Positions 1,320-47,272 of a DNA stretch of 64,000 nucleotides are shown here, one piece after another. Position 1 is the first letter of the stretch. Each line of letters opens with the position of its first letter. The notes under the pieces are model-generated. The model did no database searches, was not told the origin of the DNA, and worked only from the letters and a program-made list of their open reading frames with translations. This DNA is from Selenomonas ruminantium AC2024 (lineage in GTDB: Bacteria > Bacillota > Negativicutes > Selenomonadales > Selenomonadaceae): contig NZ_JIAC01000001.1 of the NCBI RefSeq assembly GCF_000687995.1, positions 2,604,001-2,668,000 of the forward strand, in the 5' to 3' direction. The position numbers and the translations under genes were made by a program.

Positions 1320-2003
1320 TTAAGAGGACTCTGTCAAATCAGGTGCTAATTTGACATTTGTTGCTTTGTCCATGGTAAGTTCATCCCAGGAAATTTCATG
1401 CATCATAAGCAGTGGCTGCATTCCCAGCAGGGCGGCCGACAGCATATAATTGCCAAGGTTGAGACTGCAAATCCCATACGCCTTTCCCGCATATTCTATT
1501 AACTTTTTTTCAGCCACAGGCATGGTACTGATTTCCCCAGGCGATAACGAAAAACCGTGTCCCTCGCATTTTACCAGACTTTCCTTTCTTGTCCATAAGC
1601 GATAAAACCGTTCCTGTCGCTCGCTTTCATCTTTTCCCCGCAGCATCCATTCATATTCCGAGGAAGTCAGTGCCTCCCGTACCCAATCGCCATAGGAAAC
1701 CATTTTCTCGATATCCACGCCCACAGAGCTGTCTGCCTCAGCCAGCACAGCATATGCTCCACTATGCGATAGATTGAAAAACTTTCCCTCTGCCAAAGGT
1801 TTTCCTTCTTCATTATAGGAAATACTGCGACCCTGAGCTGCTTTTTGCAGCAACAGGGAAGACGCAAAGCACCTAAGCCTGTCCTCTTCCTGCCGATAAC
1901 GCATCATCTTTTCATAGCGCGCTGCCGGCAAAAGTCTTGCAGCATCCCCCAGATGGGAACGCAGACAGTCCACCGGCAAGAGCGTTATCATCACTTCGCG
2001 CAT
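1320..2003 (-). CDS. Sfp-type 4'-phosphopantetheinyl transferase
   Basis: Transfers the phosphopantetheine arm of CoA to carrier-protein serines. Family motifs are intact: NLSHSG (about residue 77), GVDIE with the metal-binding acidic residues (about 95) and LWTRKESLVKCEGHG (about 136). At 227 aa it matches the Sfp/Gsp size class and not the short AcpS class. I start at the ATG at 2003, preceded by GGGGAAGA, and not at the upstream TTG. An NRPS with two GGDS carrier sites lies 2.5 kb away on the same strand, separated by deoD and a MATE gene, so this enzyme probably activates it. It could also serve the fatty-acid ACP, as no AcpS is visible here. Confidence 0.93.
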   Translation of the reverse strand: MREVMITLLPVDCLRSHLGDAARLLPAARYEKMMRYRQEEDRLRCFASSLLLQKAAQGRSISYNEEGKPLAEGKFFNLSHSGAYAVLAEADSSVGVDIEKMVSYGDWVREALTSSEYEWMLRGKDESERQERFYRLWTRKESLVKCEGHGFSLSPGEISTMPVAEKKLIEYAGKAYGICSLNLGNYMLSAALLGMQPLLMMHEISWDELTMDKATNVKLAPDLTESS

Positions 2004-2034
2004 ACTTCTTCCCCACAATCTTTACTATGCTTCA

Positions 2035-3126: not shown

Positions 3127-4464
3127 TCAATCTTCTTCCGTTCCCAGCAGCGGCATTTTCTTTATCAGGAAAGCCGTGCCAAGAATAGCTCCGACCACCG
3201 TAGCCGCCGGGGCAGCGTACCAGATATTGTCCGCACCGAACAGCACCGGGAACAAGTAGATGAAGATAATCGGCGCAATCAGCGACTGACAGACGGCAAT
3301 GACTGCCGAAATCGTTCCCCGGTCCAGCCCCGTAAAAAAGCCTGAGGTTACAAGGCAAAAACCATACAGGAAAAATTCCAGTGCGCAAATTCTGAGGGCT
3401 CTAGTCGCAAAAGCATGTGCTTCCGGGTCGTAGCCGAGATACAAGGTGGCAATGTCATCGGCCAAGGAAACACCGACAGCGGTCATGACGAAGCCCAATC
3501 CCAGCGTCAAAACGATGTTCTTCTTCATCAAATCTCTTATGCCGTCAAAATCCCCTGCACCATACTTGTAACCGACCACCGTCACCGTCGTCGTATTGAT
3601 GGCAAAGAAAACGGATAAAAACACCTCGCCGACATAGCTGTGCACACCGATAGCGGCCACGCCCAATTGTCCCAGCAGCAGCATGAGCTGCAGATTGTAG
3701 ACAAGCTCCAGAATGTTGACCGAAACGGCATCGACCATCTCGGATATGCCATTGTAGCAAATCTTCGCCAGACGATAGAGGTCAAAGCGGAAACGCACAA
3801 AATGCAAGCCGGAGGCATTGGGACGGGAGAAATACCACAAGGTAATGAGCGTGTTCACGATAGTTGCCAGACCGGTTGCCGTCGCCGCTCCCTCAATCTC
3901 ATATTCCAGCACGACGATGAACAGCCAGTCCAGAATAACATGTGTCACGCCCTGCACCACCGAAAGATAAAAACCTGTCTCCGATTTCTCGGCCATGACC
4001 CACAGACTTTGAAATGACGTGGTTATGAGGAGTGGCGCAATGAACAGGAACAGAATGCGCCCATATCGCAGACAATAGGGCACAAGTTCTTCCGATGCCC
4101 CCAGCATGCGGACAATCTCCGGCAGGAAGATAACCATCAGGGTACTAAAGAAAGCGCCCCAGATAAATATCACCGCCACCAGCAGCGTAAAATACTGCCG
4201 GGCTTTTTCGATATTGCCCTCCCCCTTGAGCTTGGAGATAAAGGCACTGCCGCCCTCACCAATCATGAAGCCCGGCGCCACCAGCATCATCAACAGCGGA
4301 AATACCAGATTGACAGCCGCAAAGGAGCTTACCCCCAGCCAGTTGGATACGAAAAAACCATCTGCCATCTGAAACGAAGTAATCGCCAGCATGGTGCCGA
4401 TATTCGGCAGGCTGTAAAGTAAGATTTTTTTATACGTAAAATGTTCGGAAAGCTCTATTTTCAT
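3127..4464 (-). CDS. MATE-family multidrug/metabolite exporter
   Basis: Twelve-helix inner-membrane antiporter of 445 aa with the twofold MATE pattern: an N-half beginning YSLPNIGTMLAITSFQMADGF, internal GEGGSAFISKLKGEG, and a C-half that repeats the fold (VGYKYGAGDFDGIRDLMKKN). The start lies 18 bp after the NRPS stop, so it is almost surely co-transcribed with it. MATE proteins expel cationic and amphipathic small molecules using Na+ or H+. Context makes it the likely exporter or self-resistance protein for the NRPS product; that link is inference. Confidence 0.9.
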   Translation of the reverse strand: MKIELSEHFTYKKILLYSLPNIGTMLAITSFQMADGFFVSNWLGVSSFAAVNLVFPLLMMLVAPGFMIGEGGSAFISKLKGEGNIEKARQYFTLLVAVIFIWGAFFSTLMVIFLPEIVRMLGASEELVPYCLRYGRILFLFIAPLLITTSFQSLWVMAEKSETGFYLSVVQGVTHVILDWLFIVVLEYEIEGAATATGLATIVNTLITLWYFSRPNASGLHFVRFRFDLYRLAKICYNGISEMVDAVSVNILELVYNLQLMLLLGQLGVAAIGVHSYVGEVFLSVFFAINTTTVTVVGYKYGAGDFDGIRDLMKKNIVLTLGLGFVMTAVGVSLADDIATLYLGYDPEAHAFATRALRICALEFFLYGFCLVTSGFFTGLDRGTISAVIAVCQSLIAPIIFIYLFPVLFGADNIWYAAPAATVVGAILGTAFLIKKMPLLGTEED

Positions 4465-4482: not shown

Positions 4483-7400
4483 TCATCCATTTACCAACTG
4501 TTTGAAATGCTTGATGTAGATATCCAGGAATTTCCGGATACTGCCCTCAGCATAAGCATGGGCCAAATACTCGATATGGATATTGACCTTGCCGTTTTTC
4601 TCCTGCAGATAGAGATCGGCATGTCCCATCATGGATTCATCCACACCGGCCAAAGGAACTTCCGTCGGTTCAAAGCCTTCCATATTGGAGGCATCACCCA
4701 ACTGGGCAACGTAATTGACCACGATGGCATCTTCCTCGGCGATGTTTTCCTTGGCGCTATAGTCGCAAATACTGTTGGCAAAACTCTCAATGACCTGACG
4801 GTTCACTTCCTGCAGCAACACTTCCAGGGAAGAATATTGCTGCAAATCCACAGCCAGAGGCAGCATCTTGAAGACCAGTCCTACCGTATTCTGCAGGTAT
4901 TTTTCCGTACGGTTGCTGTTTAGATAATCGACATTGATTTCGTCCTTATGACAGTATTCCTGCAGGGCGAGCATGGCTGCCGTAATGGCCAAAACAGTAC
5001 GGGAATAGCCCCGGCGTTTTTCTGCCGCGTCCACCTGCTGAACGGTCACGACGCCATCCTCTGCCTCTATAAGCGATTCCGTCTCCCATGTCTCGAAATC
5101 CGGGGTAGGAATCCTGCACCAGTCATGACCGGCCAGGAGATTCTGGAAATAGGCCTTGGCCTCATCAAATTCCTTGGTTCCCTGGGCTTCCCATTCCTGC
5201 CGCAGATAGCTGTAATAGTAATCGCGCGCCAGTGGTTTTCCCCAATAGGCCTTGGCAATATCTGCCAGCAATACGCCCTGCGAAGTGCCATCAGAAATCA
5301 TGTGATGTACATCCATGAAGAGATACAACTTTTCACCGCAGCGGAAAATCTGTGAGCGGAAAAGCGGTGCATTGAAGATACGGAACGGCTGCACCAGCGT
5401 TTGGGTAAGCTGTTCCAGTTCCTCTTCTGTAACATCCTTAACAGTCGTTTTTGGCAGAATTCCCGGCTCTATATGCTGTCTGATTTCCCCTTCCCCATCC
5501 AAATCTATGGTAAACACGGAGTTGAGGGCGGGATGATGGCTTACCGCCTCATCCACCGCCTTGGCCAGCTTTTCTGCATCCAGTTTTGCATTCAGACGAT
5601 AGAACACGGGAATATTGTACATAGGCGAACGTACGTCCATGAATTGGTCATCCACCATCAACATCTGCGCCAGTGTTGCCGGGATGGCCTTGCTCCGCGC
5701 CTCTTCATCGTATTCCTGCAGATTCCCGAGCATCTGTCCGGAAAGTTCTTCTGCAATACGCCGTGCTGTCTTACACTTGAAGATGGTCTTGGCACTCAAT
5801 CCTTCAATATCCGCCGTTGCCATGACCCGCATGGATTTTATAGAGTCACCGCCCAAAAGATAGAAATCATCATTTCTACCCACACTGTTTTCTTCCAAGC
5901 CTAAGACTTTGGCAAAGACTTCACAGAGTTTTTTCTCTATTTCGTTGGTCGGTGCCTCATAGGCAACGTGCTGGCCCTGCAAGTCCGGCACAGGCAGGAT
6001 TTTGCGGTTGATTTTGCCATTGGGCGTCAGGGGCATGACTTCAAGCGGTATATAGACGGTTGGCACCATATATTCCGTAAGTGTCCCAGACAGGAAGTGC
6101 TTAAACTGTTCTACATCTATCTTGGTACCCTCTGTCTGCGTGTAATAAAGGACAAGCTGCTCCTTTACCACAGCTGCCACGACCTGTTCAATGCCATCAT
6201 ACTGGCTGGCGCAGTTCTCAATCTCACCGAGTTCAATGCGGAAGCCGCGCAGTTTGACCTGATGGTCTATGCGGCCTAAATATTCCAGAACCCCGTCTTC
6301 ATTGTAGCGAGCCAAATCGCCTGTGCGGTACATCTTCTCACCCTTCAGGAAAGGACAAGGCACAAAGCTTCTGGCCGTGATTTCCGGCTTGTTCCAGTAG
6401 CCATCCGCAATCTGGTTTCCGGCCAGACACAGTTCGCCTGCCATGCCCTGTGGCAGCAGATGGCCATAGGCGTCACAGATAAAGGAATAAGTGTTGGGCA
6501 CGGGACGGCCGATGGGAATATCGATGTCTTTTTCCTGGTCTACCCAGTGGCAGGACGAACAAACGGTGAATTCCGTGGGGCCATAGCCATTGACAATCTG
6601 GATATCCGTCTTTCTGCAGGGCAGCATCTTTTCACCGCCCATCAACATATAACGCATGGGCAGTTCCGGATACTGATTAAGCATAGCCATGCCCATCTGC
6701 GTGGAAAACGAGGCATGGACGATGCCATGCTCGATGATGTAGTCCTTCATCTCCTCCATATTGCGGCGCAATTCCTCCGACAGGATATGAATTTCAGCCC
6801 CAGCGGCGATTGGACAGAGCAAATCCTCCAAAGATGCATCAAAGGAAAAACTCGGATGCACAGCATGAACGCTCTTTTCGGTGATAGCAAAATCAATCAA
6901 CCGCCATTCCACATAGGCACGCAGGGAACGGTGACTCTGCACGACTCCCTTGGGACGTCCCGTGGAGCCGGAAGTATAAATCATATAGGCGCGCCCCTGC
7001 GGCACTGCGCGGTTAACCGACTCTGCCTTTGGATATTTTGCTATGGCCTCCGCCACCGCTTCTTCGGTCAAAACAGCCCGCGCAGCCGAGTCCTCGAGCA
7101 TGTAAGCAATACGGTCCTCCGGATATGTCGGGTCGATGGGCACATAAGCTGCCCCGAGTTTTTCCACAGCAATCACGCCGGCCAGGAATTCCTTCACACG
7201 GTCCATGCGCAGAGCTACAAAGTCGCCCGCTTTTGTCCCCTTTTCACTCAGCCAGGCTGCTATGCTGTTGGACACCTGCTCCAATTCCCCGTAGGTATAC
7301 TTTCCTGTGCTGTCCACAACGGCCGTATGTTCCGGTCTTTCTTTCACCTGCTTGAGGAACATATCCACCCATGTTTCGGACATATCATACACATAGGTCG

Positions 7401-10400
7401 GCCCTTTGGACAGAGCTATAAGCTCCGCTTCCTGTTCCTTGTCTAAAAGCGGCATGGAATGAAGTGAACGTTGAGGCTGCTCCACCATGCAGGCAATGTA
7501 ATGTTCCATAAGGGCAAAGATGCGTTCCATCTCAATCTTGCGGTAACGCTGCGGGTCGAAGGACAGAATCACCTCGATGCTACCATCGGCCAACGCCGTT
7601 GCATCAATGCCGACATAACTGCCCACATGCTCTTCCTTGACGAGCATGGGCTTCAGCATGGACAAACCATCCTCATCATCCCCGTAGTTTTCAAAAGAGA
7701 GAATGGAATAGACCAAGCCCTCGGACATGCCAATCGCTTTTTGTACATCAGCCAGCGGACAGAAATCAAACGGATTGCCCTCCAGAGACTGTTCATGAAG
7801 ATTCTGCAGAAGTTCTGCCGCGGTAGAATCCTTGCCCGCCTTGAGCCGTACGGGAACCGTATTGATGAACAGGCCGACCAGGTCGGACACATCGGCGGAG
7901 GTATTATCCCTGCCGGAAACCACCTTGCCAAACACCACATCATCCAGACGGCAGACGGTCTGCAGCACCATCCCCCAGGCCAGTTCCATACCACTGGAAA
8001 GTGTTGCGCCCGCATTGCGGCACATCTGCTCAAACTGCCCAATCAGCCCGGCATCCAGATGCCTGATAATCCGATTGTCCTTATACCGCTCATGTTCGGC
8101 AATCTTGCCATAAGCAGGAATCTCCGCCTGATTCTCATACCCCTCCAAGAGATTGGCAAAGTACTTTGTAGCTGCTTTCCTATCCTTGGCGATGAGTTCC
8201 CTGACCATGGTCTCATAAAGCCCAGTCTTGTCGGATAGAATCTCCGGCTGCGCTATACCTTCTCTTGCCATCTGCAGGAAATGCTCGAAGTCTTTCAGAT
8301 ACGTGCCTACACACCAGCCATCGACGATAATATGATGAACTGCCGTAATCAGGCAGGCAGTATTCTCCGAAGTTTTGGCACAGATAATCTGGAACAAAGG
8401 TTTTCTCTGCAGGTCAAAGCCCTCATGAAGCATTTTCTCCCGCAGCTTGTTTGCGGCGGCAAAGTTGTCCTGCTCTTTGCTGATATCCACCAGCGAAAGG
8501 CCAAGTTTCCTGTCTGTGATGGCCTGGCGATGCACCGCTACCCCCTCATGGATGATGGCCGTACGCAGGACTTCATGCCTCTCAGCCAGTGCATCCAGAG
8601 CCAGACGCAGTTCTTTTTCCGTGGGCAGGAAGTTCAGGGCATAGATATCCACCAGACGATAGGCGGAATCATGGGGGTCCATCACATGGGACAGCAGCAT
8701 CCCTTCCTGCAGCGGCGTCAACGGATAAATCCGCTCGATATGCTCACCTCGTGCGGCGAATTCCTCCACAACAGCGTTGAATTCTTCCTCGCTCCAGGAA
8801 GTTTCCCCTAAATCCGAGGCCGTGACCACAGGTTCACGGACACTGTCCAGATGAGCTGTCAGTTCCCCAATCTCCTTCAGAATTCCCTGTGCAAAGGCCT
8901 GTGCTGTTTTTTCATCATACAGCCCCGTATTATAATCCAAATAAAGGTTGAAACACCCTCCGTCAATCAGACAGTTAACCGCCAAATCCGGGCCGTCACA
9001 ATTCTTCACCGCTTGATAGTCCAAGCCCGTGGAAAAACCATCCTTGCTGTCCGGGGCAAAATACGTTCTGTTTTCCTCAGCACCTGCCACATCACCGAGA
9101 TAGTTGAACACCATTTTCGGGATGAGATTCTTTTCCCAAGCGAGCTTATGCTGCCCCTCCACAAACGCGAGGACATTATAGCCGACACCTTTGTTGGGAA
9201 TGCGATGCAGAGTCTCCTTCACCCGAATGAGGTCATGCTGCGCTTCCCCATTCAGCTTTTCCAACACGACAGGAAAGATGGAGGTAAACCAACCAATGGT
9301 GCGGTCGGTCAAAAGTTCCTTGCCGATGTATTCACGGCCATGACCTTCGAGCTGCAAAGACAGGGAGTCCTTGCCAAAAGTCTGCCGATAGCTTCTGCCG
9401 ACAGCCGTCAGCAAAAGGTCATTAATTTCCAGCTGATAGGCGGAAAGTTTTGCCGCGAGCATTTTGTCTGTCCCGGGCTTGTCCATAGAGACGGTAAGGT
9501 GCGCAAAATGACGGCTGTAGTCTTTCCCCTTGGAGGTCTCCATCGCCAGAACCTTGCGAACCGTTTCCTGCCAATAGGGAATCTCCAGCGACAGGGCATA
9601 GCTGTCCCGATACTCCTTCATAGCCTGGGCATAATCCTGATAAGTATGCGTCTTTTCCGGCAGCTTCACGCTTTCTTTTGCCAAAGCCTGCCCATAAGCC
9701 GTCTCCAAATCCTCCAGCAGGATACGCCAGGAAATGCCGTCCACAATCGTATGATGCGCCGTAATGAAGAAGAGGTCCCTTGCGCCTGCATGCAGGAGAG
9801 CCGCCCGCACTAACGCTTTGTCCACCACCAGATGAGACTGGATATCCTCGCAGAGTTCCTTTATCTTGTCGGTATCATCAGTTAGTGTATACTCTTCCAG
9901 CGTCACGCCATGTTCGCCGGCCACTGCAGGCTTTACAAAGAGATGGCCCTGCTCAAACCTAGTGCGGAGCATATCATGCTGGAAGGTGATGCCATCAAAG
10001 GCCGCCTGCAAGACTGCCAAATCGGCCTTGCCCTTCCACTCCAACAGGGTGGACTGATTGAAATAGGCACTTTCCGGATAATCAAGGTCCTTGTAGAAGA
10101 GGAAGATGCCGCTATCCTCAACCAAGCCTTCTATCGGCTCCTGACTTACCTGCATTTCTTCAGCGCCATATTTGGCAAACTGGGCAATCTTTTCCACCAC
10201 ACGGTGTTTTAATACATCATTAGCCTTCAGCAAAATTCCCTGTGCCCGCAGGAAGCTGACCATACGGATAGCCTTGATGGAGTCGCCGCCAATCTCGAAG
10301 AAATTATCGAGCGCGCCAATCTTCACATCTCTTTCCAAAGCCTTCTTCATGCAATCGGCTATCGCCTGCTCCAGTTCATTACGCGGTGCGATGTACTCTA

Positions 10401-11877
10401 CAGAACGCTCCATCACAGGCTCCGGCAGGGCTTTGCGGTCCAATTTACCATTAGGCGTTTCCGGCATCTTATCGAGACGGATGAAGCAGCCGGGAATCAT
10501 ATAATCCGTCAGGCTTTCTTCCATGGCAGACTTCCAGGCCTGTTCGTCGATATCCGTTTCCGCCGTGTAGTAAAGGCAAAGGGTATCGTGCTTCACTTCC
10601 GCTGCCACCTGAATGATGCCTGGATATTTCAGCGCCGCACTCTCCACTTCCCCAAGTTCGATGCGGAACCCCCGCAGCTTCACCTGAAAGTCGATGCGTC
10701 CGAAGAATTCCAGCTGGCCCTCCTCATTGTAACGGGCCAAATCCCCCGTGCGATAGACGCGCCGCACATCATCATCCGCAATCTTGATGTCAATGAATTT
10801 TTCCGCCGTAAGTTCCGGCCGCTTCCAATAGCCCTTGGCCAGCTGCGGGCCGGACAGGCAGAGTTCACCCACTTCCCCTAGCGGCAGCAGTTCCTGTTTT
10901 TCGCCTAAGATAAATGCCGCGCAATTGAAAAGCGGACGGCCAATGGGGATGGGATTATATTCTTTCCCCTTCTCCAATTCAAAATACGTAGCATCCACCG
11001 TAAATTCCGTGGGGCCATAGGTGTTGTAAACTGCACCGCGCGCTTTGACAGTGCTCGTCATGGCCTCGCCGCCCAGCACAATGTAGTCCACATTCAGCGG
11101 CTCATCTCCTGCCAGCATCTGGCCAAAACGGGTCGTATAACAGCCGCCGGTGATACCGTGCTTTTCGATGAACTTTTTCATTTCAAAGATGTCCCGCCGT
11201 GCTTCCTCGGGAACAATATAGACACAGCCGCCAGCCGTAAGGGCAGGATACAAATCCTCCACCGAAGCATCAAAAGCAAAATTCGAGTGGCAGGCAATCC
11301 GGCTCTTTTCCGTCAAATGCCAGCGTTCCCGAATGAAGTGGACAAAGTTTACGAGCGCCTTGTGCTGTATCATGACTCCTTTGGGCTTTCCCGTGGAGCC
11401 GGAGGTATAAATCATATAAGCAAGGCCCTCAGGGGATTGCTTATAATCCTGTGGGGCAAGGGGCGGACACGTTTCTACGGCCTGTTTTACCGTTTTTTCC
11501 GTGATGACCATCTTGGCCTCGGAATCTTCCAGCATATAGGTCACACGGCCGGCCGGATAATCCAGGTCAAGAGGAACATAAGCCCCGCCTGCCTTATGCA
11601 CGCCCAGAGCAGCCGCGATGAATTCCTTGGAGCGTCCCATGCGGATGGCCACAAAGGTATTTTCCTTAAGGCCCTCATCCATGAGATACTTGGCCACCCG
11701 GTCAGATGCTTCATCCAGTTCCTTATATGTCATGCCGCCGTTTTCATCAGCCACGGCCATTCCGTCAGGATATTTCTCTGCTTGTTTGCGAAATAAATCC
11801 ACCCAAGTCTCAGAAGTATCATAAACATACTGCTCCCCTTCTGACACTGCCAAAATTTTTTCCACTTGTATATCCAT
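4483..11877 (-). CDS. Two-module nonribosomal peptide synthetase, A-T-E-C-A-T-C
   Basis: A 2464-aa cytoplasmic assembly line. Domains, with residues counted from the ATG at 11877: adenylation 1 about 25-490 (IYTSGSTGKPKG, FDASVED, NTYGPTE, YRTGDLARY, NGKLDRKAL). Carrier 1 about 498-568 with GGDS Ser533. Epimerisation 583-1010 (HHTIVDG, EGHGRE, GWFTS, PNKGVGY). Condensation 1045-1480 (YPLTPLQEGML, HHIIVDG). Adenylation 2 about 1500-1978 (IYTSGSTGRPKG, FDASLED, NGYGPTE). Carrier 2 with GGDS Ser2012. Terminal condensation-like domain 2063-2464 with HHMISDG. No thioesterase or reductase follows. The layout predicts a dipeptide whose first residue is D-configured, released by or through the last domain. 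The start at 11877 has GGAGGA 6 nt upstream; an earlier ATG at 11898 lacks spacing. Product unknown. Confidence 0.95.
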   Translation of the reverse strand: MDIQVEKILAVSEGEQYVYDTSETWVDLFRKQAEKYPDGMAVADENGGMTYKELDEASDRVAKYLMDEGLKENTFVAIRMGRSKEFIAAALGVHKAGGAYVPLDLDYPAGRVTYMLEDSEAKMVITEKTVKQAVETCPPLAPQDYKQSPEGLAYMIYTSGSTGKPKGVMIQHKALVNFVHFIRERWHLTEKSRIACHSNFAFDASVEDLYPALTAGGCVYIVPEEARRDIFEMKKFIEKHGITGGCYTTRFGQMLAGDEPLNVDYIVLGGEAMTSTVKARGAVYNTYGPTEFTVDATYFELEKGKEYNPIPIGRPLFNCAAFILGEKQELLPLGEVGELCLSGPQLAKGYWKRPELTAEKFIDIKIADDDVRRVYRTGDLARYNEEGQLEFFGRIDFQVKLRGFRIELGEVESAALKYPGIIQVAAEVKHDTLCLYYTAETDIDEQAWKSAMEESLTDYMIPGCFIRLDKMPETPNGKLDRKALPEPVMERSVEYIAPRNELEQAIADCMKKALERDVKIGALDNFFEIGGDSIKAIRMVSFLRAQGILLKANDVLKHRVVEKIAQFAKYGAEEMQVSQEPIEGLVEDSGIFLFYKDLDYPESAYFNQSTLLEWKGKADLAVLQAAFDGITFQHDMLRTRFEQGHLFVKPAVAGEHGVTLEEYTLTDDTDKIKELCEDIQSHLVVDKALVRAALLHAGARDLFFITAHHTIVDGISWRILLEDLETAYGQALAKESVKLPEKTHTYQDYAQAMKEYRDSYALSLEIPYWQETVRKVLAMETSKGKDYSRHFAHLTVSMDKPGTDKMLAAKLSAYQLEINDLLLTAVGRSYRQTFGKDSLSLQLEGHGREYIGKELLTDRTIGWFTSIFPVVLEKLNGEAQHDLIRVKETLHRIPNKGVGYNVLAFVEGQHKLAWEKNLIPKMVFNYLGDVAGAEENRTYFAPDSKDGFSTGLDYQAVKNCDGPDLAVNCLIDGGCFNLYLDYNTGLYDEKTAQAFAQGILKEIGELTAHLDSVREPVVTASDLGETSWSEEEFNAVVEEFAARGEHIERIYPLTPLQEGMLLSHVMDPHDSAYRLVDIYALNFLPTEKELRLALDALAERHEVLRTAIIHEGVAVHRQAITDRKLGLSLVDISKEQDNFAAANKLREKMLHEGFDLQRKPLFQIICAKTSENTACLITAVHHIIVDGWCVGTYLKDFEHFLQMAREGIAQPEILSDKTGLYETMVRELIAKDRKAATKYFANLLEGYENQAEIPAYGKIAEHERYKDNRIIRHLDAGLIGQFEQMCRNAGATLSSGMELAWGMVLQTVCRLDDVVFGKVVSGRDNTSADVSDLVGLFINTVPVRLKAGKDSTAAELLQNLHEQSLEGNPFDFCPLADVQKAIGMSEGLVYSILSFENYGDDEDGLSMLKPMLVKEEHVGSYVGIDATALADGSIEVILSFDPQRYRKIEMERIFALMEHYIACMVEQPQRSLHSMPLLDKEQEAELIALSKGPTYVYDMSETWVDMFLKQVKERPEHTAVVDSTGKYTYGELEQVSNSIAAWLSEKGTKAGDFVALRMDRVKEFLAGVIAVEKLGAAYVPIDPTYPEDRIAYMLEDSAARAVLTEEAVAEAIAKYPKAESVNRAVPQGRAYMIYTSGSTGRPKGVVQSHRSLRAYVEWRLIDFAITEKSVHAVHPSFSFDASLEDLLCPIAAGAEIHILSEELRRNMEEMKDYIIEHGIVHASFSTQMGMAMLNQYPELPMRYMLMGGEKMLPCRKTDIQIVNGYGPTEFTVCSSCHWVDQEKDIDIPIGRPVPNTYSFICDAYGHLLPQGMAGELCLAGNQIADGYWNKPEITARSFVPCPFLKGEKMYRTGDLARYNEDGVLEYLGRIDHQVKLRGFRIELGEIENCASQYDGIEQVVAAVVKEQLVLYYTQTEGTKIDVEQFKHFLSGTLTEYMVPTVYIPLEVMPLTPNGKINRKILPVPDLQGQHVAYEAPTNEIEKKLCEVFAKVLGLEENSVGRNDDFYLLGGDSIKSMRVMATADIEGLSAKTIFKCKTARRIAEELSGQMLGNLQEYDEEARSKAIPATLAQMLMVDDQFMDVRSPMYNIPVFYRLNAKLDAEKLAKAVDEAVSHHPALNSVFTIDLDGEGEIRQHIEPGILPKTTVKDVTEEELEQLTQTLVQPFRIFNAPLFRSQIFRCGEKLYLFMDVHHMISDGTSQGVLLADIAKAYWGKPLARDYYYSYLRQEWEAQGTKEFDEAKAYFQNLLAGHDWCRIPTPDFETWETESLIEAEDGVVTVQQVDAAEKRRGYSRTVLAITAAMLALQEYCHKDEINVDYLNSNRTEKYLQNTVGLVFKMLPLAVDLQQYSSLEVLLQEVNRQVIESFANSICDYSAKENIAEEDAIVVNYVAQLGDASNMEGFEPTEVPLAGVDESMMGHADLYLQEKNGKVNIHIEYLAHAYAEGSIRKFLDIYIKHFKQLVNG

Positions 11878-11923
11878 CTTCATTCCTCCGTTAATCATCC
11901 TTCAGAAATCAACGGCCTTACAG

Positions 11924-18451: not shown

Positions 18452-21400
18452 TTACATGTAATCGGCGGAAGTTTTCTTCTTCTGCTGCTTAAACATACCG
18501 AGCTTCGCGGCAATCCATTCCATGGCTACGAAGAACACCGGAATCAGGAAGATACCGAGAGCGGTTGCAAAGAGCATACCACCGACAACGGCCACGCCCA
18601 TACCATTACGGGCAGCCGCACCGGCACCACTGGCCACAGCCAGCGGCAGGCAGCCGATGATGAACGCAAAGGATGTCATGAGGATAGGACGCAGACGCAG
18701 GCCGGCTGCTTCAATAGCGGCCTTGACCGGCTCCATGCCTCTGTCCACACGAACCTTGGCGAACTCTACAATCAGAATAGCGTTCTTGGCTGCCAGACCG
18801 ATAATCATGATGATACCAATCTGCATGTAAACGCTGTTCTGCAGGCCAGCATTCTGAATGCCGAACATCCCTTCCAGCATGGACAGGCCATACTCGGAGA
18901 TAAGAGCACCCATAATACCAGTCGGCACCGTCAGTAGGACGGCGAACGGAACACTCCAGCTTTCATAAAGTGCTGCCAGGCACAGGAATACGAATACCAG
19001 TGCAAGTGCCAGCACCTGGAAGGTGGAGCTGGTTGCCTTAGCTTCCTCACGGCTCTGGCCGGACCATTCGATGTTGAAGCCGTTGGGCGCATTCTGCTCA
19101 ACCACTTCTTTGATGGCTGCCATGGCCTGACCGGAGGAATAACCTTCACCGGCATTACCCTGAATGTTGATGGCGCGTGCACCGTTGAAACGGGAAATCG
19201 ACGTCGGGCCGGAACTTACACGCGGTTTTAAGAGCGTATCGAGCGGCACCATCGTGTTATTGGAGGATTCCACATACACAAACTTCATGCCTTCGGCTTC
19301 ACTGCGGTAGCTTACATCCGACTGCAGCATAACCTTGTAGGTACGGCCGAACTGGTTGAAGTCGTTGACCTGGGCACCACCGAAGTTCACCTGCATAGCC
19401 GTGAACACATCAGACATCTTGACGCCCAACTGCTTGACCTTTTCACGGTCAATATCGTATTCATAGGTCGGTGCCGTCATCTTAAAGGTCGTACGCACGC
19501 CCTTAAGTTCCGGACGCTGGTTGGCTGCGGCCACGATTTTGCCCGTGATATCAGCCAATTCTTCATCGGTATGACCGGACATATCCTGCAGCTGCAGGCT
19601 CCAGCCGCCTACTGCACCCAAACCAGGCAGAGCCGGCGGGTTCATGGCGATAACCGTAGCTTCCGGTGCCAGTTTTGCCCCGATGCCGAACATAGCACCA
19701 ACCGCTGCCCCAACGGATTCATCACCGCCGGGACGCTGTGACCAGTCCTTCATGCCCAAAACCACAAGGCCGGCACTCGGCTTAGCGCCGCCGCCCAAGA
19801 TATCAAAGCCCGTGATGGCCATGACATTTTCTACACCCTTGACGTCTTTAGCTGCCGCAGCCACCTTGTCGATGGACTGCTGGGTGACATTCATGGATGT
19901 ACCTTCCGGCAGCTGTACTACCGCAAAGAGATAGCCCTGGTCTTCGTCCGGAACGAAGGTGGACGGAAGGACCTTGTAAAGTGCACCGGAAATGATGCAC
20001 ACAATGACCATAAAGAGTATAGCCAGGCGGGTGCGGCGGATAAACTTAGCCACAATGCCCATATAACCACGCTTCGTGCGTTCAAACCAGTTGTTGAACT
20101 TCACGAAGAACTGACCGAGAACACCTTCATCATCCTTGGCTTCATGACGCTTCAGAATCATAGCACAGAGCGCCGGTGTCAGCGTCAGAGCCACAAAGGC
20201 GGAAAGCGCCATGGACACCGCAATGGTCAAAGCGAACTGACGGTAAAGGATACCCGTCATGCCGCCTAAGAAAGCAACCGGGACGAACACGGCGGCTAGA
20301 ACGAAGGCGATAGCCACAACCGGGCCCTGCACTTCGGCCATGGCACGCTCGGTGGCATCAATCGGCGTCAAGCCTTCTTCCATGTGCTTTTCGACGTTTT
20401 CGATTACGACGATAGCATCATCGACGACAAGGCCGATAGCCAATACCATGGCGAAAAGGGTCAGTGTGTTAATGGAGAACCCTAGCACCACAAACGCCGC
20501 TAGAGTACCGATAAGGGATACCGGCACAGCCAACAGCGGAATCAGCGTTGCACGCCAGCTCTGGAGGAACAGGAAGATAACCAGCACCACCAGCAGCAGG
20601 GCTTCGACGAAGGTTTCCACTACTTCCTTGATGGAAGCGTTGATATAGTTCGTGGAGTCGAAAATCTGCGCCATTTCAAGTTTCGGCGGCAGGGTCGGCT
20701 TAGCTTTTTCAAGCACTTCACGCACACCGGCTACCGTCTGCATGGCGTTGGCATCACTGGTCAGGTTGATACCGAAACCAACGGAAGGATAGCCGTTGAA
20801 CTTGGAGATAATCGCACTGGATTTTTCCCCGGTTTCCACACGGGCTACGTCCTTCAGGCGGACAAATTTACCTTTATCGGAACGCAGCACAATATTACCG
20901 AATTCCTCAGCCGTTACCAGGCGGCCGGAAATCTTACCCGTGTACTGCTTTTCCTGACCATTGTTTACCGGCATAGCGCCGACCGTACCGGCCGGAGCCT
21001 GCACGTTCTGTTCCTTAATGGACGAGGTTACATCGGCAACGGTCAGCTTGAGCTCGGCCAGCTTGTCCGGATTGAGCCAGACGCGCATGGCGTAGTCAGA
21101 ACCGAAAATCTGCACATCACCGACGCCGGATACACGCTTGAGTTCATCGAGCAGATAAATATCGGCGTAGTTTTTCATGTAGGCACGGTCATAAGTGCCG
21201 TCCGGAGAATAAAGGGACAGCATGTAGGCCATGTCGTTAGACGATTTTTTGGTCGTAACACCGACCTGCTGTACATCGGAAGGCAGGCTGGCGTTGGCAA
21301 TGGCGACATTGTTCTGCACCTTTACGGAGTCCATATCGCCATCCGTTCCCGTCTCAAAGACTACAGACAGGCTGTAACGGCCGCTGTCGTCCGAGTTGGA

Positions 21401-21637
21401 ACTCATATAATCCATACCCTGAGTACCATTGACCTGCTGCTCGATTATCTGAGCCACCGTATCGTTGATAACGGAGGCGCTGGCACCGGTATAGCTGGTA
21501 CCAACGGAAACCGTCGGTGGCGAAATCTGCGGATACTGGGCAATTGGCAGCTGGAAGGCGGCCAAAATACCGACAATCACGATGATAATCGAGATAACAA
21601 TGGCAAATATCGGGCGGTGAATAAAAAACTTAGACAA
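18452..21637 (-). CDS. RND multidrug efflux pump, HAE1/AcrB type
   Basis: Inner-membrane proton-driven pump subunit of 1061 aa that would span to the outer membrane with the adjacent fusion protein and a TolC-like channel not present here. It starts SKFFIHRPIFAIVISIIIVIVG, has the proton-relay pair in GLVVDDAIVVIENVEKH (about residue 410) and the partner Lys in GLAAKNAILIVEFAK, plus the duplicated periplasmic loops (GTSMNVTQQSIDKV, NDFNQFGRTYKVMLQ) of hydrophobe/amphiphile exporters. The TTG start has GGAGGCGGCGAT. It follows the MFP gene by 12 bp and is governed by the divergent MarR gene. Confidence 0.95.
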   Translation of the reverse strand: MSKFFIHRPIFAIVISIIIVIVGILAAFQLPIAQYPQISPPTVSVGTSYTGASASVINDTVAQIIEQQVNGTQGMDYMSSNSDDSGRYSLSVVFETGTDGDMDSVKVQNNVAIANASLPSDVQQVGVTTKKSSNDMAYMLSLYSPDGTYDRAYMKNYADIYLLDELKRVSGVGDVQIFGSDYAMRVWLNPDKLAELKLTVADVTSSIKEQNVQAPAGTVGAMPVNNGQEKQYTGKISGRLVTAEEFGNIVLRSDKGKFVRLKDVARVETGEKSSAIISKFNGYPSVGFGINLTSDANAMQTVAGVREVLEKAKPTLPPKLEMAQIFDSTNYINASIKEVVETFVEALLLVVLVIFLFLQSWRATLIPLLAVPVSLIGTLAAFVVLGFSINTLTLFAMVLAIGLVVDDAIVVIENVEKHMEEGLTPIDATERAMAEVQGPVVAIAFVLAAVFVPVAFLGGMTGILYRQFALTIAVSMALSAFVALTLTPALCAMILKRHEAKDDEGVLGQFFVKFNNWFERTKRGYMGIVAKFIRRTRLAILFMVIVCIISGALYKVLPSTFVPDEDQGYLFAVVQLPEGTSMNVTQQSIDKVAAAAKDVKGVENVMAITGFDILGGGAKPSAGLVVLGMKDWSQRPGGDESVGAAVGAMFGIGAKLAPEATVIAMNPPALPGLGAVGGWSLQLQDMSGHTDEELADITGKIVAAANQRPELKGVRTTFKMTAPTYEYDIDREKVKQLGVKMSDVFTAMQVNFGGAQVNDFNQFGRTYKVMLQSDVSYRSEAEGMKFVYVESSNNTMVPLDTLLKPRVSSGPTSISRFNGARAINIQGNAGEGYSSGQAMAAIKEVVEQNAPNGFNIEWSGQSREEAKATSSTFQVLALALVFVFLCLAALYESWSVPFAVLLTVPTGIMGALISEYGLSMLEGMFGIQNAGLQNSVYMQIGIIMIIGLAAKNAILIVEFAKVRVDRGMEPVKAAIEAAGLRLRPILMTSFAFIIGCLPLAVASGAGAAARNGMGVAVVGGMLFATALGIFLIPVFFVAMEWIAAKLGMFKQQKKKTSADYM

Positions 21638-44191: not shown

Positions 44192-47100
44192 TTATGTACG
44201 CCCCGATTCCTTGCCCTGATAGAAGTACAGGAAGATAATCGGAATCACGAGCAGGGTGAATACCGTGGAGGTCAGAAGCCCGCCGATAATCACCCAGGCC
44301 ATGGAGACGCGGGTCTCGGCGCCATCACTCATAGCCAGCGCCATAGGCATCATGCCCACCATCATGGTAATGGTGGTCATGCAGATGGGCTTCAAGCGAA
44401 CACAGCCGGCCTCTACAATGGCTTCGAGTGCAGTCTTGCCTCTATCCATCAGGGTCAGCGTATAGTCAATCAACAAGGTGCCGTTCTTGGCTACGATGCC
44501 GTCCATCACCAATATGCCAATCATAGAATAAAGATTCAGCGTGTTATGGGTCAGGAACAACAGAAGCACGGAACCAATGAGCCCCAACGGCAGGGAGAAC
44601 ATGCGGATAAACGGCGTCAGCACGGATTCGTAGAGCACTGCTAGCAGCATATAGATAAGCACAAGTGCTAGCAGCAGGGCGCTTAAGAGCTCGCTGAAGG
44701 TATCGTTCATACGGCTGGCCTGTCCTTTGAATTTATAGGTGATGCCCTCGCCCAAGTCTGCCTGCTTGAGCGCCTTGCGCACATCACGGATTACATCCCC
44801 CACTGGCCTGCCCTGCAGATTCGCGCCCAGACGAATGGAACGCTGTTTATCCACCCGCCGGATGCTCACGGGGCCCCGCCCATCTTTAATGTCGGCCAAA
44901 TCGCCCAGATAGGCAAGTTTCCCATTTGACCAGACAGGCACGCGGGCCACATCCGACGCCTGATAACCATCGGAACCTTTGAAGCGCACCTTGATATTCG
45001 TATCCTGCCCACCGTTTAAGGGGTCATTTTTGAGCGAACCCGCTGAACGGCCGGAAATAGCGGAAGAAAAAGCGGTATCGATATCAGCAATGCTGGCGTT
45101 GAACGCCTTGAGCTTATCCCGGTTGACGGTAAGCTGCAATTCCGGCATACCTTCCGTATAGGAACTGTTCACTCCACCAATGCCTTTGATGTCGTTGCGC
45201 AGGATTTTTTCCACTTTGTCTGCGGCAGCGCTCAGCTCCTGCATGTTGTTGCCCCGCAGTTCTACCTGCAAGGCACCGCCGCCACCACGGCCACCTCCGC
45301 CACCGGAGATACCGGCCACATTGGACTGAGTTTCCGTCACGCGGATATCGGCGCTCTTAATCTGCTGCGCAAACTCGCGCACCTCCTGAGTAATCTCCCA
45401 AACAGAACGGCTGCGGTCATGGCGGCCAACCAGTTCCACCTTAATGCGTCCTTCATAGGCACTGGCCGCACCGCCCGCCTGCGTCATATAGTATTTCACC
45501 TCGGGAATTTCCGCAAGCTTAGCCTCCAAAAGTTTGGCCACCTTATTGGGTTCCTCGGAGGATGCCCGCACCGGGCACTCAATATTGATGGTAAAGCTGG
45601 ACTCATCCGTCTGGGGCATATACTCCATGCCCACAATCCCCAACGGAACCATGGCCATAACGCCGACAAAAACAGCCAAAATGGTCAGCAAAAGTTTCTT
45701 CTGATGGGCCAGACTCCAATGAAGCGCCCGCCGATAAAGGCCCACCGCCCGTTCCTCAGTCTTATCCATAAACTGCCAAAGGAAACGGTTGTCCACATGA
45801 TAGCCTTTGCGGAAGAACTTAGCCGCCAGCATGGGCGTCAATGTAAAGGAAACGAACAGGGAAAAAGCCCCGGCAAAGACAATGGTCAAGCCGAACTGGC
45901 GGAAGTACTGCCCCGTCATGCCCTCCATAAAGGCAATGGGCATAAAGACCGCCGCATCGCAGAGGGTGATGGCAATAGCCGCCATGCCGATTTCCATACG
46001 GCCCCGCTCGGCCGCGACTTCCGGTTCGGCACCGTTTTTCAGATAGCGGATGATGTTTTCCAGCACCACAATGCTGTCGTCCACCAAGATGCCCACGCAG
46101 AGAGTCATGCCCATCAAAGACATCATATTGAAGGTGAACCCCGCCAGATACATGACAAAGAATGTAGAAATCAGCGATGTGGGAATGGCAATCATCACCG
46201 CCGCGGTGGAACGCCAGCCGCGCAGGAACAGGAAGAGGACCAGACCTGTTGTAATCAAACCTTCCACCAATGTCCCCAAGGTGTCATGGAGGGAGGTTTC
46301 CACATACTCCGCATCATTGGACACCACCACGAACTGATAATCCGGGTAATCCTGACGCAGTTTCTTCACGGCTGACAGAATGTTGTTGGCCGTCTCCACC
46401 ACATTGGCGTCGCTGTTCTTGTAAATCAGCACGTTGACTGCCGGTTCCCCGTTAAGGCGCCCATAGCGCACCTGCCGGGCATCCTGCTCCTTTACCGTGG
46501 CGACCGCCGTCAAAGGTATCAGTTCCCCACTGCCGTTAGCAATGCGGATTTTTTCAATATCGCTGGCCTTTTTGTACTCAGCTACCACCCGCACATCGGC
46601 CTTGGAGCTATCCGTATACACCGGGCCTGAGGGCAGCAGCTGGTTTTCATTCTTGATGGCGCTGGCAATCTTGGGCAGGGTCAGCTTATAGGCGGTGAGC
46701 TTTTCCCTGTCCACCTCCACGGCCACTTCCTTGTCCCGGCCGCCATGCAGTTCAATTTCCGAAACACCGCCCGCCTGCTGCAATACATCCTGAAAGACGT
46801 GCTCCGTCATGGCATAGGTGGTCCCCAGCCCCTGCTGGCTCATCACCGCCAGTTCCATAATGGGTTTGGCATTGATATCCCGCTTGATGACTACGGGAGC
46901 ATCGGCCTCATCGGGGAGTTTATTTTTGATGGCCTCGACTTTTTTCGTGGCTTCGATGGCCGCCAGGTCTGCGTCCGCATCAAAGTTCATTTCCATCATG
47001 ACCCGTCCCCGCTCATAACTGGCAACGGAGGTGATGGATTTCACATTGGACACGGAGGATACCGCATCTTCCACCGGCTTGATGATTTCCTGTTCCACGG

Positions 47101-47272
47101 ATTCCGCACTGGCGCCGGGATATTTCACCGTCACCGTCACATAGGGCGTATTGAGGGCAGGCAGCAGTTCCACGCCGATGCGGTAGTAACTGTAAAGCCC
47201 CAGCACCACGAAAAAGGCCACAATCATGGATATGCCTACCGGGCGGCTGATGGATAAACGAGTGATATTCAT
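44192..47272 (-). CDS. RND-family efflux transporter (second system)
   Basis: Proton-driven inner-membrane pump of 1026 aa. It begins NITRLSISRPVGISMIVAFFVVLGLYSYYRIGVELLPAL and has GILVDDSIVVLENIIRYLKNG in the first helix bundle and DGIVAKNGTLLIDY in the second. The sequence is well diverged from the AcrB-like protein at 18452. A Gly/Arg run (SGGGGGRGGGGA, around residue 650) marks the second periplasmic loop. Overlap of 4 bp with the MFP gene indicates coupling. Substrates are unknown; no outer-membrane channel is nearby. Confidence 0.93.
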   Translation of the reverse strand: MNITRLSISRPVGISMIVAFFVVLGLYSYYRIGVELLPALNTPYVTVTVKYPGASAESVEQEIIKPVEDAVSSVSNVKSITSVASYERGRVMMEMNFDADADLAAIEATKKVEAIKNKLPDEADAPVVIKRDINAKPIMELAVMSQQGLGTTYAMTEHVFQDVLQQAGGVSEIELHGGRDKEVAVEVDREKLTAYKLTLPKIASAIKNENQLLPSGPVYTDSSKADVRVVAEYKKASDIEKIRIANGSGELIPLTAVATVKEQDARQVRYGRLNGEPAVNVLIYKNSDANVVETANNILSAVKKLRQDYPDYQFVVVSNDAEYVETSLHDTLGTLVEGLITTGLVLFLFLRGWRSTAAVMIAIPTSLISTFFVMYLAGFTFNMMSLMGMTLCVGILVDDSIVVLENIIRYLKNGAEPEVAAERGRMEIGMAAIAITLCDAAVFMPIAFMEGMTGQYFRQFGLTIVFAGAFSLFVSFTLTPMLAAKFFRKGYHVDNRFLWQFMDKTEERAVGLYRRALHWSLAHQKKLLLTILAVFVGVMAMVPLGIVGMEYMPQTDESSFTINIECPVRASSEEPNKVAKLLEAKLAEIPEVKYYMTQAGGAASAYEGRIKVELVGRHDRSRSVWEITQEVREFAQQIKSADIRVTETQSNVAGISGGGGGRGGGGALQVELRGNNMQELSAAADKVEKILRNDIKGIGGVNSSYTEGMPELQLTVNRDKLKAFNASIADIDTAFSSAISGRSAGSLKNDPLNGGQDTNIKVRFKGSDGYQASDVARVPVWSNGKLAYLGDLADIKDGRGPVSIRRVDKQRSIRLGANLQGRPVGDVIRDVRKALKQADLGEGITYKFKGQASRMNDTFSELLSALLLALVLIYMLLAVLYESVLTPFIRMFSLPLGLIGSVLLLFLTHNTLNLYSMIGILVMDGIVAKNGTLLIDYTLTLMDRGKTALEAIVEAGCVRLKPICMTTITMMVGMMPMALAMSDGAETRVSMAWVIIGGLLTSTVFTLLVIPIIFLYFYQGKESGRT

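Follow-up and report, generated by a model that had tools for sequence, protein, structure and literature searches.

Condensation (C) domains of non-ribosomal peptide synthetases (NRPS) are known in several roles. The C6 domain of TycC and the C domain of bacitracin synthase 3 are elongation domains, whose acceptor is an amino acid bound to a carrier, while VibH is an enzyme of the C fold with a soluble amine as its substrate. That a C domain at the end of a line can release the chain onto such an amine is also already known, as described in the parts of PMC10587159 and PMC9872161 that are drawn on here. In the glidonin system, the products were lost in vivo when C13 was inactivated, and proteins bearing C13 raised the yield of the putrescine amide in vitro above the background that was formed without it (PMC10587159, same parts). 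Since the amide partly forms without a C domain in that assay, an amide product alone would be no proof of catalysis by the terminal domain that is described below. Malleobactins and bicornutin A are named as similar proposals in the introduction of PMC10587159. The RXP synthetases, in the sections of PMC9872161 used here, have a terminal or free-standing C domain and make peptides with C-terminal amines, which are aromatic amines and agmatine.

The NRPS considered in this study lies in a window of 64,000 nucleotides (the whole stretch of DNA that was analysed) from Selenomonas ruminantium AC2024 and ends in a C domain, here called Ct. As far as the glidonin synthetase GdnB is described in those parts, its C13 resembles Ct in standing after the last functional A-T unit, in carrying HHxxxDG, in needing no thioesterase and in releasing the chain onto a soluble diamine, which for Ct is our proposal. 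Glidonins are, however, twelve-residue peptides of Burkholderiales, and C13 is followed by partial A, T and thioesterase domains, whereas the Selenomonas protein ends in C. The RXP systems, compared by their partial description, are similar in their small modules, terminal or free-standing C domains (cf. locus L058) and amine-ended products, the last of these again as proposed here, but their modules are C-first, often methylate and take Val, Leu or Phe, in contrast to an A-first line with an epimerisation (E) domain, Lys-like codes and a MATE pump. What differs here is the lineage, the A-first uni- or dimodular design that ends in C, the Lys-like residues and the MATE coupling. The preliminary description had called the architecture uncommon and possibly undescribed; against this stand the glidonins and RXPs, as far as the sources go, and the recurrence of the design in Selenomonadaceae. 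The release domain looks like a separate, LCL-derived version. A search of open-access full text turned up no description of such an NRPS in Selenomonas; the portions of PMC8241843 consulted report that NRPS clusters are numerous in the rumen and that sactipeptide clusters of Selenomonas are differentially expressed. The locus belongs to a family of small operons, NRPS plus MATE, that recurs in a lineage common in the rumen; no described product of this family was found in the literature searched, and its compact A-T-C or A-T-E-C-A-T-C layout offers a system for studying how a C domain changes into a release domain.

Domain order of the synthetase

The gene is encoded on the minus strand at 4483..11877, with its stop at 4483, and its product has 2464 aa. 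An alternative ATG upstream at 11898, the first ATG of the minus-strand ORF 4483-11898, would give 2471 aa. The start at 11877 was preferred because, by inspection of the sequence, a GGAGG ends 7 nt ahead of this ATG and because L066, a relative with 95% identity, has its first residue at the same place. At an E-value of 0.001, Pfam found Condensation (three stretches), AMP-binding (two), PP-binding (two) and AMP-binding_C in the protein, and no thioesterase or reductase family. Genome-wide, the thioesterase family PF00975 had a single match, which at 25.7 bits falls below the cut-off of 26.4.

The domain scan and the motif table gave the order A-T-E-C-A-T-C. The first A domain (A1, 10399..11823; all domains are on the minus strand) has the Lys-like code DAECVGTVDK and is followed by the T1 carrier (10153..10398), the E domain (8764..10143; HHTIVDGISW and EGHGRE), an internal C domain of the DCL type (7399..8748; HHIIVDGWC), the second A domain (A2, 5944..7398) with the Lys-like code DAESLGGVCK, the T2 carrier (5725..5943) and finally Ct (4486..5724; HHMISDGTS), the proposed release domain, with which the protein ends (tail of 0 aa). 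Both carriers were seen by Pfam and the domain scan and have the GGDS motif, which the motif table extends to two GGDSIK sites; the core motifs of both A domains, read by eye, are intact in appearance. A type I modular NRPS is characterised by A, T and C domains that follow the module order and have their core motifs intact, and an apparently intact C domain at the C-terminus of a protein with no thioesterase or reductase is the architecture of a terminal-C-released one. The HHxxxDGWC form of the inner C domain is the motif that was found in this analysis in domains after E. In an 89-row tree of C-type domains, described below, the E domain grouped with E domains (support 100/100) and the inner C domain with DCL domains, including those of bacillomycin synthetase (97/92). 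The E domain and the DCL-type C domain after it make a D-configured first residue the expected one. The start at 11877, the two modules with intact motifs and the lack of a release enzyme in the protein had all been read by the preliminary description and were borne out by these data, which also support the D-first dipeptide that it had predicted.

The same architecture was found in other genomes at 98%, 95% and about 60-68% identity and is therefore no accident of assembly; the named matches are those of a S. ruminantium MAG (98%) and Selenomonas sp. AE3005 (95%). A PADLOC scan of the NRPS gave no match.

A clade of terminal condensation domains

Placing the last domain in a phylogeny had been suggested earlier, and this was done with 89 C-type domain rows (33 terminal, 39 internal, 16 E and one other). 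Ct fell into a clade of 30 rows that holds 30 of the 33 terminal domains and none of the internal, E or other rows. Support for the nested branches of 30, 28, 26, 21 and 20 rows was 91/71, 96/87, 98/90, 99/88 and 99/95, respectively, so the outermost branch is weakly held. The three terminal-labelled rows outside the clade are L078_1744, L090_818 and L087_1363. The C-terminal C domain of BamB (L088_4918), which was labelled internal because it is assumed to act across the protein junction with BamC, also fell outside, among the LCL domains of Bacilli, and L090_3, a C-terminal row cut by the end of its stretch, was likewise labelled internal. Near-duplicates (L046, L047, L048, L050, L053, L055, L056, L060, L061, L062, L065, L073 and L141) were left out of this tree, as were L084, L089, L092 and seven rows that were long branches or copies. 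With fewer exclusions, a tree of 100 rows again had a terminal-only clade of 30 rows around the window's Ct (SH-aLRT 90), which L063_803 and L052_790 adjoin from outside. In both trees the members of the clade are C-terminal or free-standing C domains only. Ct hence does not group with the LCL domains that precede an A domain, as an elongation domain of that type would. Compared with 56 other rows, 29 Ct rows have the clade-specific residues W202, C203, E235, A250, K286, D321 and N337.

A profile that was built from 19 Ct domains scored at least 503.7 bits on the listed members of the clade, 348.7 on the next match (genome G429) and no more than 224.8 on the rest. At an E-value of 1e-30, 11 of 398 genomes of the phylum and 53 of 300 of the class passed; 17 of these 53 passed by a clade member and the others by weaker matches. 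Among solved domains, the closest to the profile are the elongation domains of bacitracin synthase 3 (9rde, 146.7 bits) and TycC (2jgp, 136.9 bits), which share the C-domain fold with Ct. The score was 37.4 bits for HtmB2-CT and 25.9 bits for 1l5a, which we take to be VibH; VibH is free-standing, whereas Ct is embedded in its protein. The Ct clade is thus apparently separate from VibH, and with the profile so far from both VibH and HtmB2-CT, amide release draws no support from kinship to amide-forming C domains. An AlphaFold model of Ct (mean pLDDT 86.9) has the C-domain fold, with TycC PCP-C as its best Foldseek match. A VIA fold comparison of the model gave Z-scores up to 34.3, with an rmsd of 2.8 over 378 residues; since its 50 listed entries all lie between 30.4 and 34.3, the fold alone does not separate amide synthases from elongation domains. 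Fungal CT domains have the motif SHxxxDxx, and in fungal CT or enniatin-type synthetases a C domain stands at the end of the line after a T domain, as it does here, but the motif in the window is HHMISDGTS. By the profile scores and this motif, neither a VibH type nor a fungal CT is supported by the tests made. Taken together with the Bacilli LCL domains lying outside its clade, Ct appears to derive from an LCL domain and to have turned into a dedicated terminal domain.

Ct is intact and under purifying selection. Between the window and L066 its dN/dS was 0.060, against 0.057-0.088 for the other six domains, and HHxxxDG was retained in all 19 aligned members, so that Ct shows neither the lost active-site histidine nor the relaxed selection of docking or degenerate C domains and stands apart from them in the phylogeny. 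These observations bear directly on the possibility that Ct is the remnant of a lost module and that the chain leaves by spontaneous cyclisation, aminolysis or hydrolysis. The protein has no other release domain and D-L dipeptidyl thioesters can cyclise unaided, both of which would suit such a remnant. It would also agree with the glidonin assay, in the part of PMC10587159 used here, in which free putrescine attacked the aminoacyl-T without a C domain. However, the constraint on Ct, its conserved motif and an architecture that is common across genera make this explanation most improbable. Since no release domain is present and Ct is intact and constrained, release by Ct, as had been thought at the outset, would be the best reading of the sequence.

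Related lines and the acceptor of the chain

Homologues were searched in 189 genomes of the family, and the stretches around the matches (loci, L numbers; genomes carry G numbers) were then taken. The terminal-C design is recurrent within Selenomonadaceae. The order A-T-E-C-A-T-Ct was found in eight loci, which are the window, L065, L066, L069, L071, L072 and, in pieces, L068 and L075; the line also occurs in other genera. Among the matches listed, the genus has a near-identical long line in at least three of its 22 genomes (G000, G156 and G159). In L076 the long line is cut by the contig end, and L077 keeps Ct but has no E domain. In L068 (7392-14647, genome G165) the long NRPS is broken up into three frames that overlap, by either sequencing error or decay, and a MATE gene and an A-T-C NRPS follow directly.

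A second type consists of a single module, A-T-Ct, of about 985-1070 aa and was found in eight genomes of the genus (L045-L048, L056, L057, L067 and L083; 8/22 among the loci fetched) and three others (L068, L079 and L142). A third line (g3), A-T-C-A-T-Ct of about 2030-2045 aa (L049-L051, L053 and L060-L062), has in its first A domain the code IAVFVGVAIK, without Asp235, and an inner C domain without the HHxxxDG motif; its starter may be an acid without an alpha-amine. There are also a Ct form of 1302 aa (L052), a free-standing Ct-related C domain of 444 aa with two-component and SDF symporter genes upstream (L058:7602-8936, genome G117) and, outside the class, an A-T-C protein of 997 aa (L138). 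L080 and L081 share a row of genes for two A-T-C proteins, the second with a Lys-like code, a MATE-family protein, a 454-459-aa protein, a STAS-APH protein and an A-T protein (the Pfam run covers L080). In the AC2024 genome, L084 (9269-11134, at about 2.011 Mb) encodes a protein of 621 aa whose Condensation match is divergent and split, and similar frames of about 615-637 aa with such matches occur in several Selenomonadaceae.

What accepts the chain was approached through a search of 14 genomes for carriers (PF00550) and C domains, which divergent carriers may escape. In G144, G148, G154 and G155 the PF00550 matches are the carrier of the A-T-Ct enzyme and a 77-aa ACP-sized frame only, and G101 and G111 have only one ACP-sized frame besides both carriers of the long line; by PF00550, no further NRPS carrier was thus found in these six of the 14 genomes, of which G144 and G148 are 99-100% complete and G154, G155, G101 (89%) and G111 (80%) are 80-89% complete. 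The carriers of G156 comprise one ACP-sized frame, that of the A-T-Ct enzyme and two of the long line; the AC2024 genome has the same set and one 87-aa carrier frame, and the sole match in G117 is an ACP-sized frame. Additional carrier frames occur in six genomes (G153, G159, G076, G082, G188 and G429), and there partner carriers are conceivable. Most of the 14 genomes also encode extra C-domain proteins without carriers. Among 31 proteins, that is, every Ct protein above 140 bits in the scanned loci with near-duplicates included and L144, which repeats L066/L067, dropped, the tail after Ct is only 0-5 aa in 29, which leaves no C-terminal docking segment.

Ct might act in trans and pass the dipeptide to the carrier of a second NRPS, such as an A-T-C paralogue. 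The contiguous NRPS, MATE and A-T-C genes of G165 (L068), the presence of both types in G000, G156 and G159, and the tandem A-T-C genes of L080/L081 are in line with such a hand-over; in the last two loci, terminal C domains that belong to the wider clade may pass a chain between proteins. G101 and G111, however, have the long line with only its own carriers, the A-T-Ct gene of AC2024 (L083:9200-12292, at about 1.882 Mb) lies some 0.7 Mb from the long NRPS and is followed by a MATE gene of its own, and a docking segment is missing. With no further NRPS carrier in six of the 14 genomes, hand-over to another module is unlikely as a general function, and for the window we consider it very unlikely. 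For the long line, this would leave a soluble acceptor, a ring or iteration.

Ring closure, in which the amine of the first, D-configured residue or a side chain attacks the T2 thioester to give a diketopiperazine or lactam, is suggested by the D-L dipeptide on T2, whose N-terminus, owing to the A-first start, would be free and poised for closure. There is also precedent in the cyclising terminal C domains of fungi, and a C domain is the last one in thaxtomin synthetases. Nevertheless, the A-T-Ct sisters hold one aminoacyl group, with no partner carrier in four genomes, so that a dipeptide ring is not a chemistry shared by the family unless the enzymes iterate, and L077 keeps Ct without an E domain. 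We regard ring closure as unlikely. Iteration itself, in which the dipeptide on T2 would be coupled to a fresh residue on T1 or to a growing soluble chain, would yield an alternating D/L oligo-lysine in the manner of enniatin-type or epsilon-polylysine synthetases. The carriers in G101 and G111, which besides one ACP-sized frame are only those of the line, would suit it, as would two modules that are both Lys-like by code and the placing of the terminal C domain behind a T domain, as in iterating fungal synthetases. The domain scan showed no tandem T domains, which counts against it, and iteration appears quite unlikely.

For the single-module A-T-Ct enzymes a soluble acceptor would be the simplest reading, and their occurrence as the only NRPS carriers in G144, G148, G154 and G155 favours, without proving, a soluble acceptor over a diketopiperazine for the family. 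Of the two outcomes, ring or amide, that the preliminary description had left side by side, the amide is therefore now preferred on the strength of the carrier search and the missing docking tail.

Residues, polyamines and export

The A-domain codes were read at the PheA pocket positions, with the register compared by eye with an LgrA alignment; the numbering is what we take to be that of GrsA. The codes are Lys-like in all 19 A domains of the long type, with D235, A236, E239 and, at 278, Ser or Cys. The A-T-Ct enzymes have a different code, DVVTDGVMGK (also in the L083 copy of AC2024) or DVVFDGVMGK, which indicates that the two types make different products. The codes gave no match as exact strings in open-access full text, where partial strings led to PMC3207962. 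Its Table 2, the part used here, lists DAESIGSV as the lysine signature of BacB from bacitracin synthesis, with which A2 (DAESLGGV) agrees at six of eight positions and A1 (DAECVGTV) at five. From these codes both A domains are expected to take a basic residue, which is most likely Lys, with Orn or another basic residue possible.

The genome encodes a lysine/ornithine decarboxylase whose alignment to PDB 5gjm covers all 393 residues of the latter at 868 bits; we take 5gjm to be the S. ruminantium enzyme of that name. A title cited in PMC10628300 likewise assigns 5gjm to S. ruminantium. Cadaverine is bound to peptidoglycan in this species, according to the parts of PMC10628300 and PMC8503589 used here, and this link makes it an attractive candidate acceptor. 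No decarboxylase gene was seen beside the NRPS.

Based on these features, we propose, with moderate confidence, that the protein is a stand-alone dimodular NRPS whose Ct would free a D-Lys-L-Lys-like dipeptide as an amide on a soluble amine. A1 would load a basic amino acid, most likely L-Lys, onto T1, the E domain would convert the bound residue to D, and the DCL domain would couple it to a second Lys-like residue on T2. At the HHxxxDG site of Ct, a soluble amine could then attack the T2 thioester, giving the dipeptide amide without a thioesterase. Cadaverine or putrescine would be the favoured amine because the lineage makes them, which is a guess that we hold with less confidence than the amide. 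If the acceptor is a diamine, secondary metabolism would be linked to the polyamine-decorated cell wall of Negativicutes. In a broader and more doubtful view, Negativicutes would have evolved their own LCL-derived family of chain-releasing C domains that join basic dipeptides, or one amino acid in the A-T-C enzymes, to cell-wall diamines, and the exported D-Lys-L-Lys-cadaverine-like conjugates (or alternating D/L oligo-lysines) would affect the envelopes of neighbouring cells or the producer's own polyamine-tethered outer membrane; this is unlikely to be right as a whole.

The exporter would be the MATE-family protein that is encoded directly after the NRPS (3127..4464, minus strand, by Pfam), 18 nt past its stop, and it would carry a product that is probably cationic. 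A MATE gene lies directly downstream in 25 of the 31 Ct proteins, and the distance from the end of the NRPS to its aligned start is -3 to 21 positions. The others are L076, where the NRPS neighbour is a 1029-aa frame that is RND pump-like by its first residues, L077, L052, L058, the A-T-C gene of L068, which the MATE gene precedes, and L138, in which the gene after A-T-C encodes a carboxylesterase-family protein, a possible release hydrolase at that locus. In L080 the MATE-family gene follows the second A-T-C gene. The carriers would be armed by the nearby Sfp/AcpT-type phosphopantetheinyl transferase (1320..2018, minus strand, by Pfam), so that the window also holds the Sfp-type transferase associated with a type I NRPS; in the genome, PF01648 matches this protein and a 145-aa frame of AcpS size. 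The opposite-strand deoD gene sits between the MATE and transferase genes, while in G159 the order is NRPS, MATE and transferase with nothing intervening. Upstream of the NRPS are genes for an M18 aminopeptidase, DusB, pantothenate kinase and BirA, none of which resembles a tailoring gene.

The 11 promoter-like sites are near the shuffled expectation (mean 9.2), and the 14 terminator-like sites are slightly over it (mean 9.7, sd 3.4). Elsewhere in the window there are two RND (AcrB-type) pumps (18452-21637 and 44192-47272, minus strand), and a c-di-AMP riboswitch (RF00379, 85.7 bits, 595-749) adjoins the RNase P RNA (932-1294), both on the minus strand.
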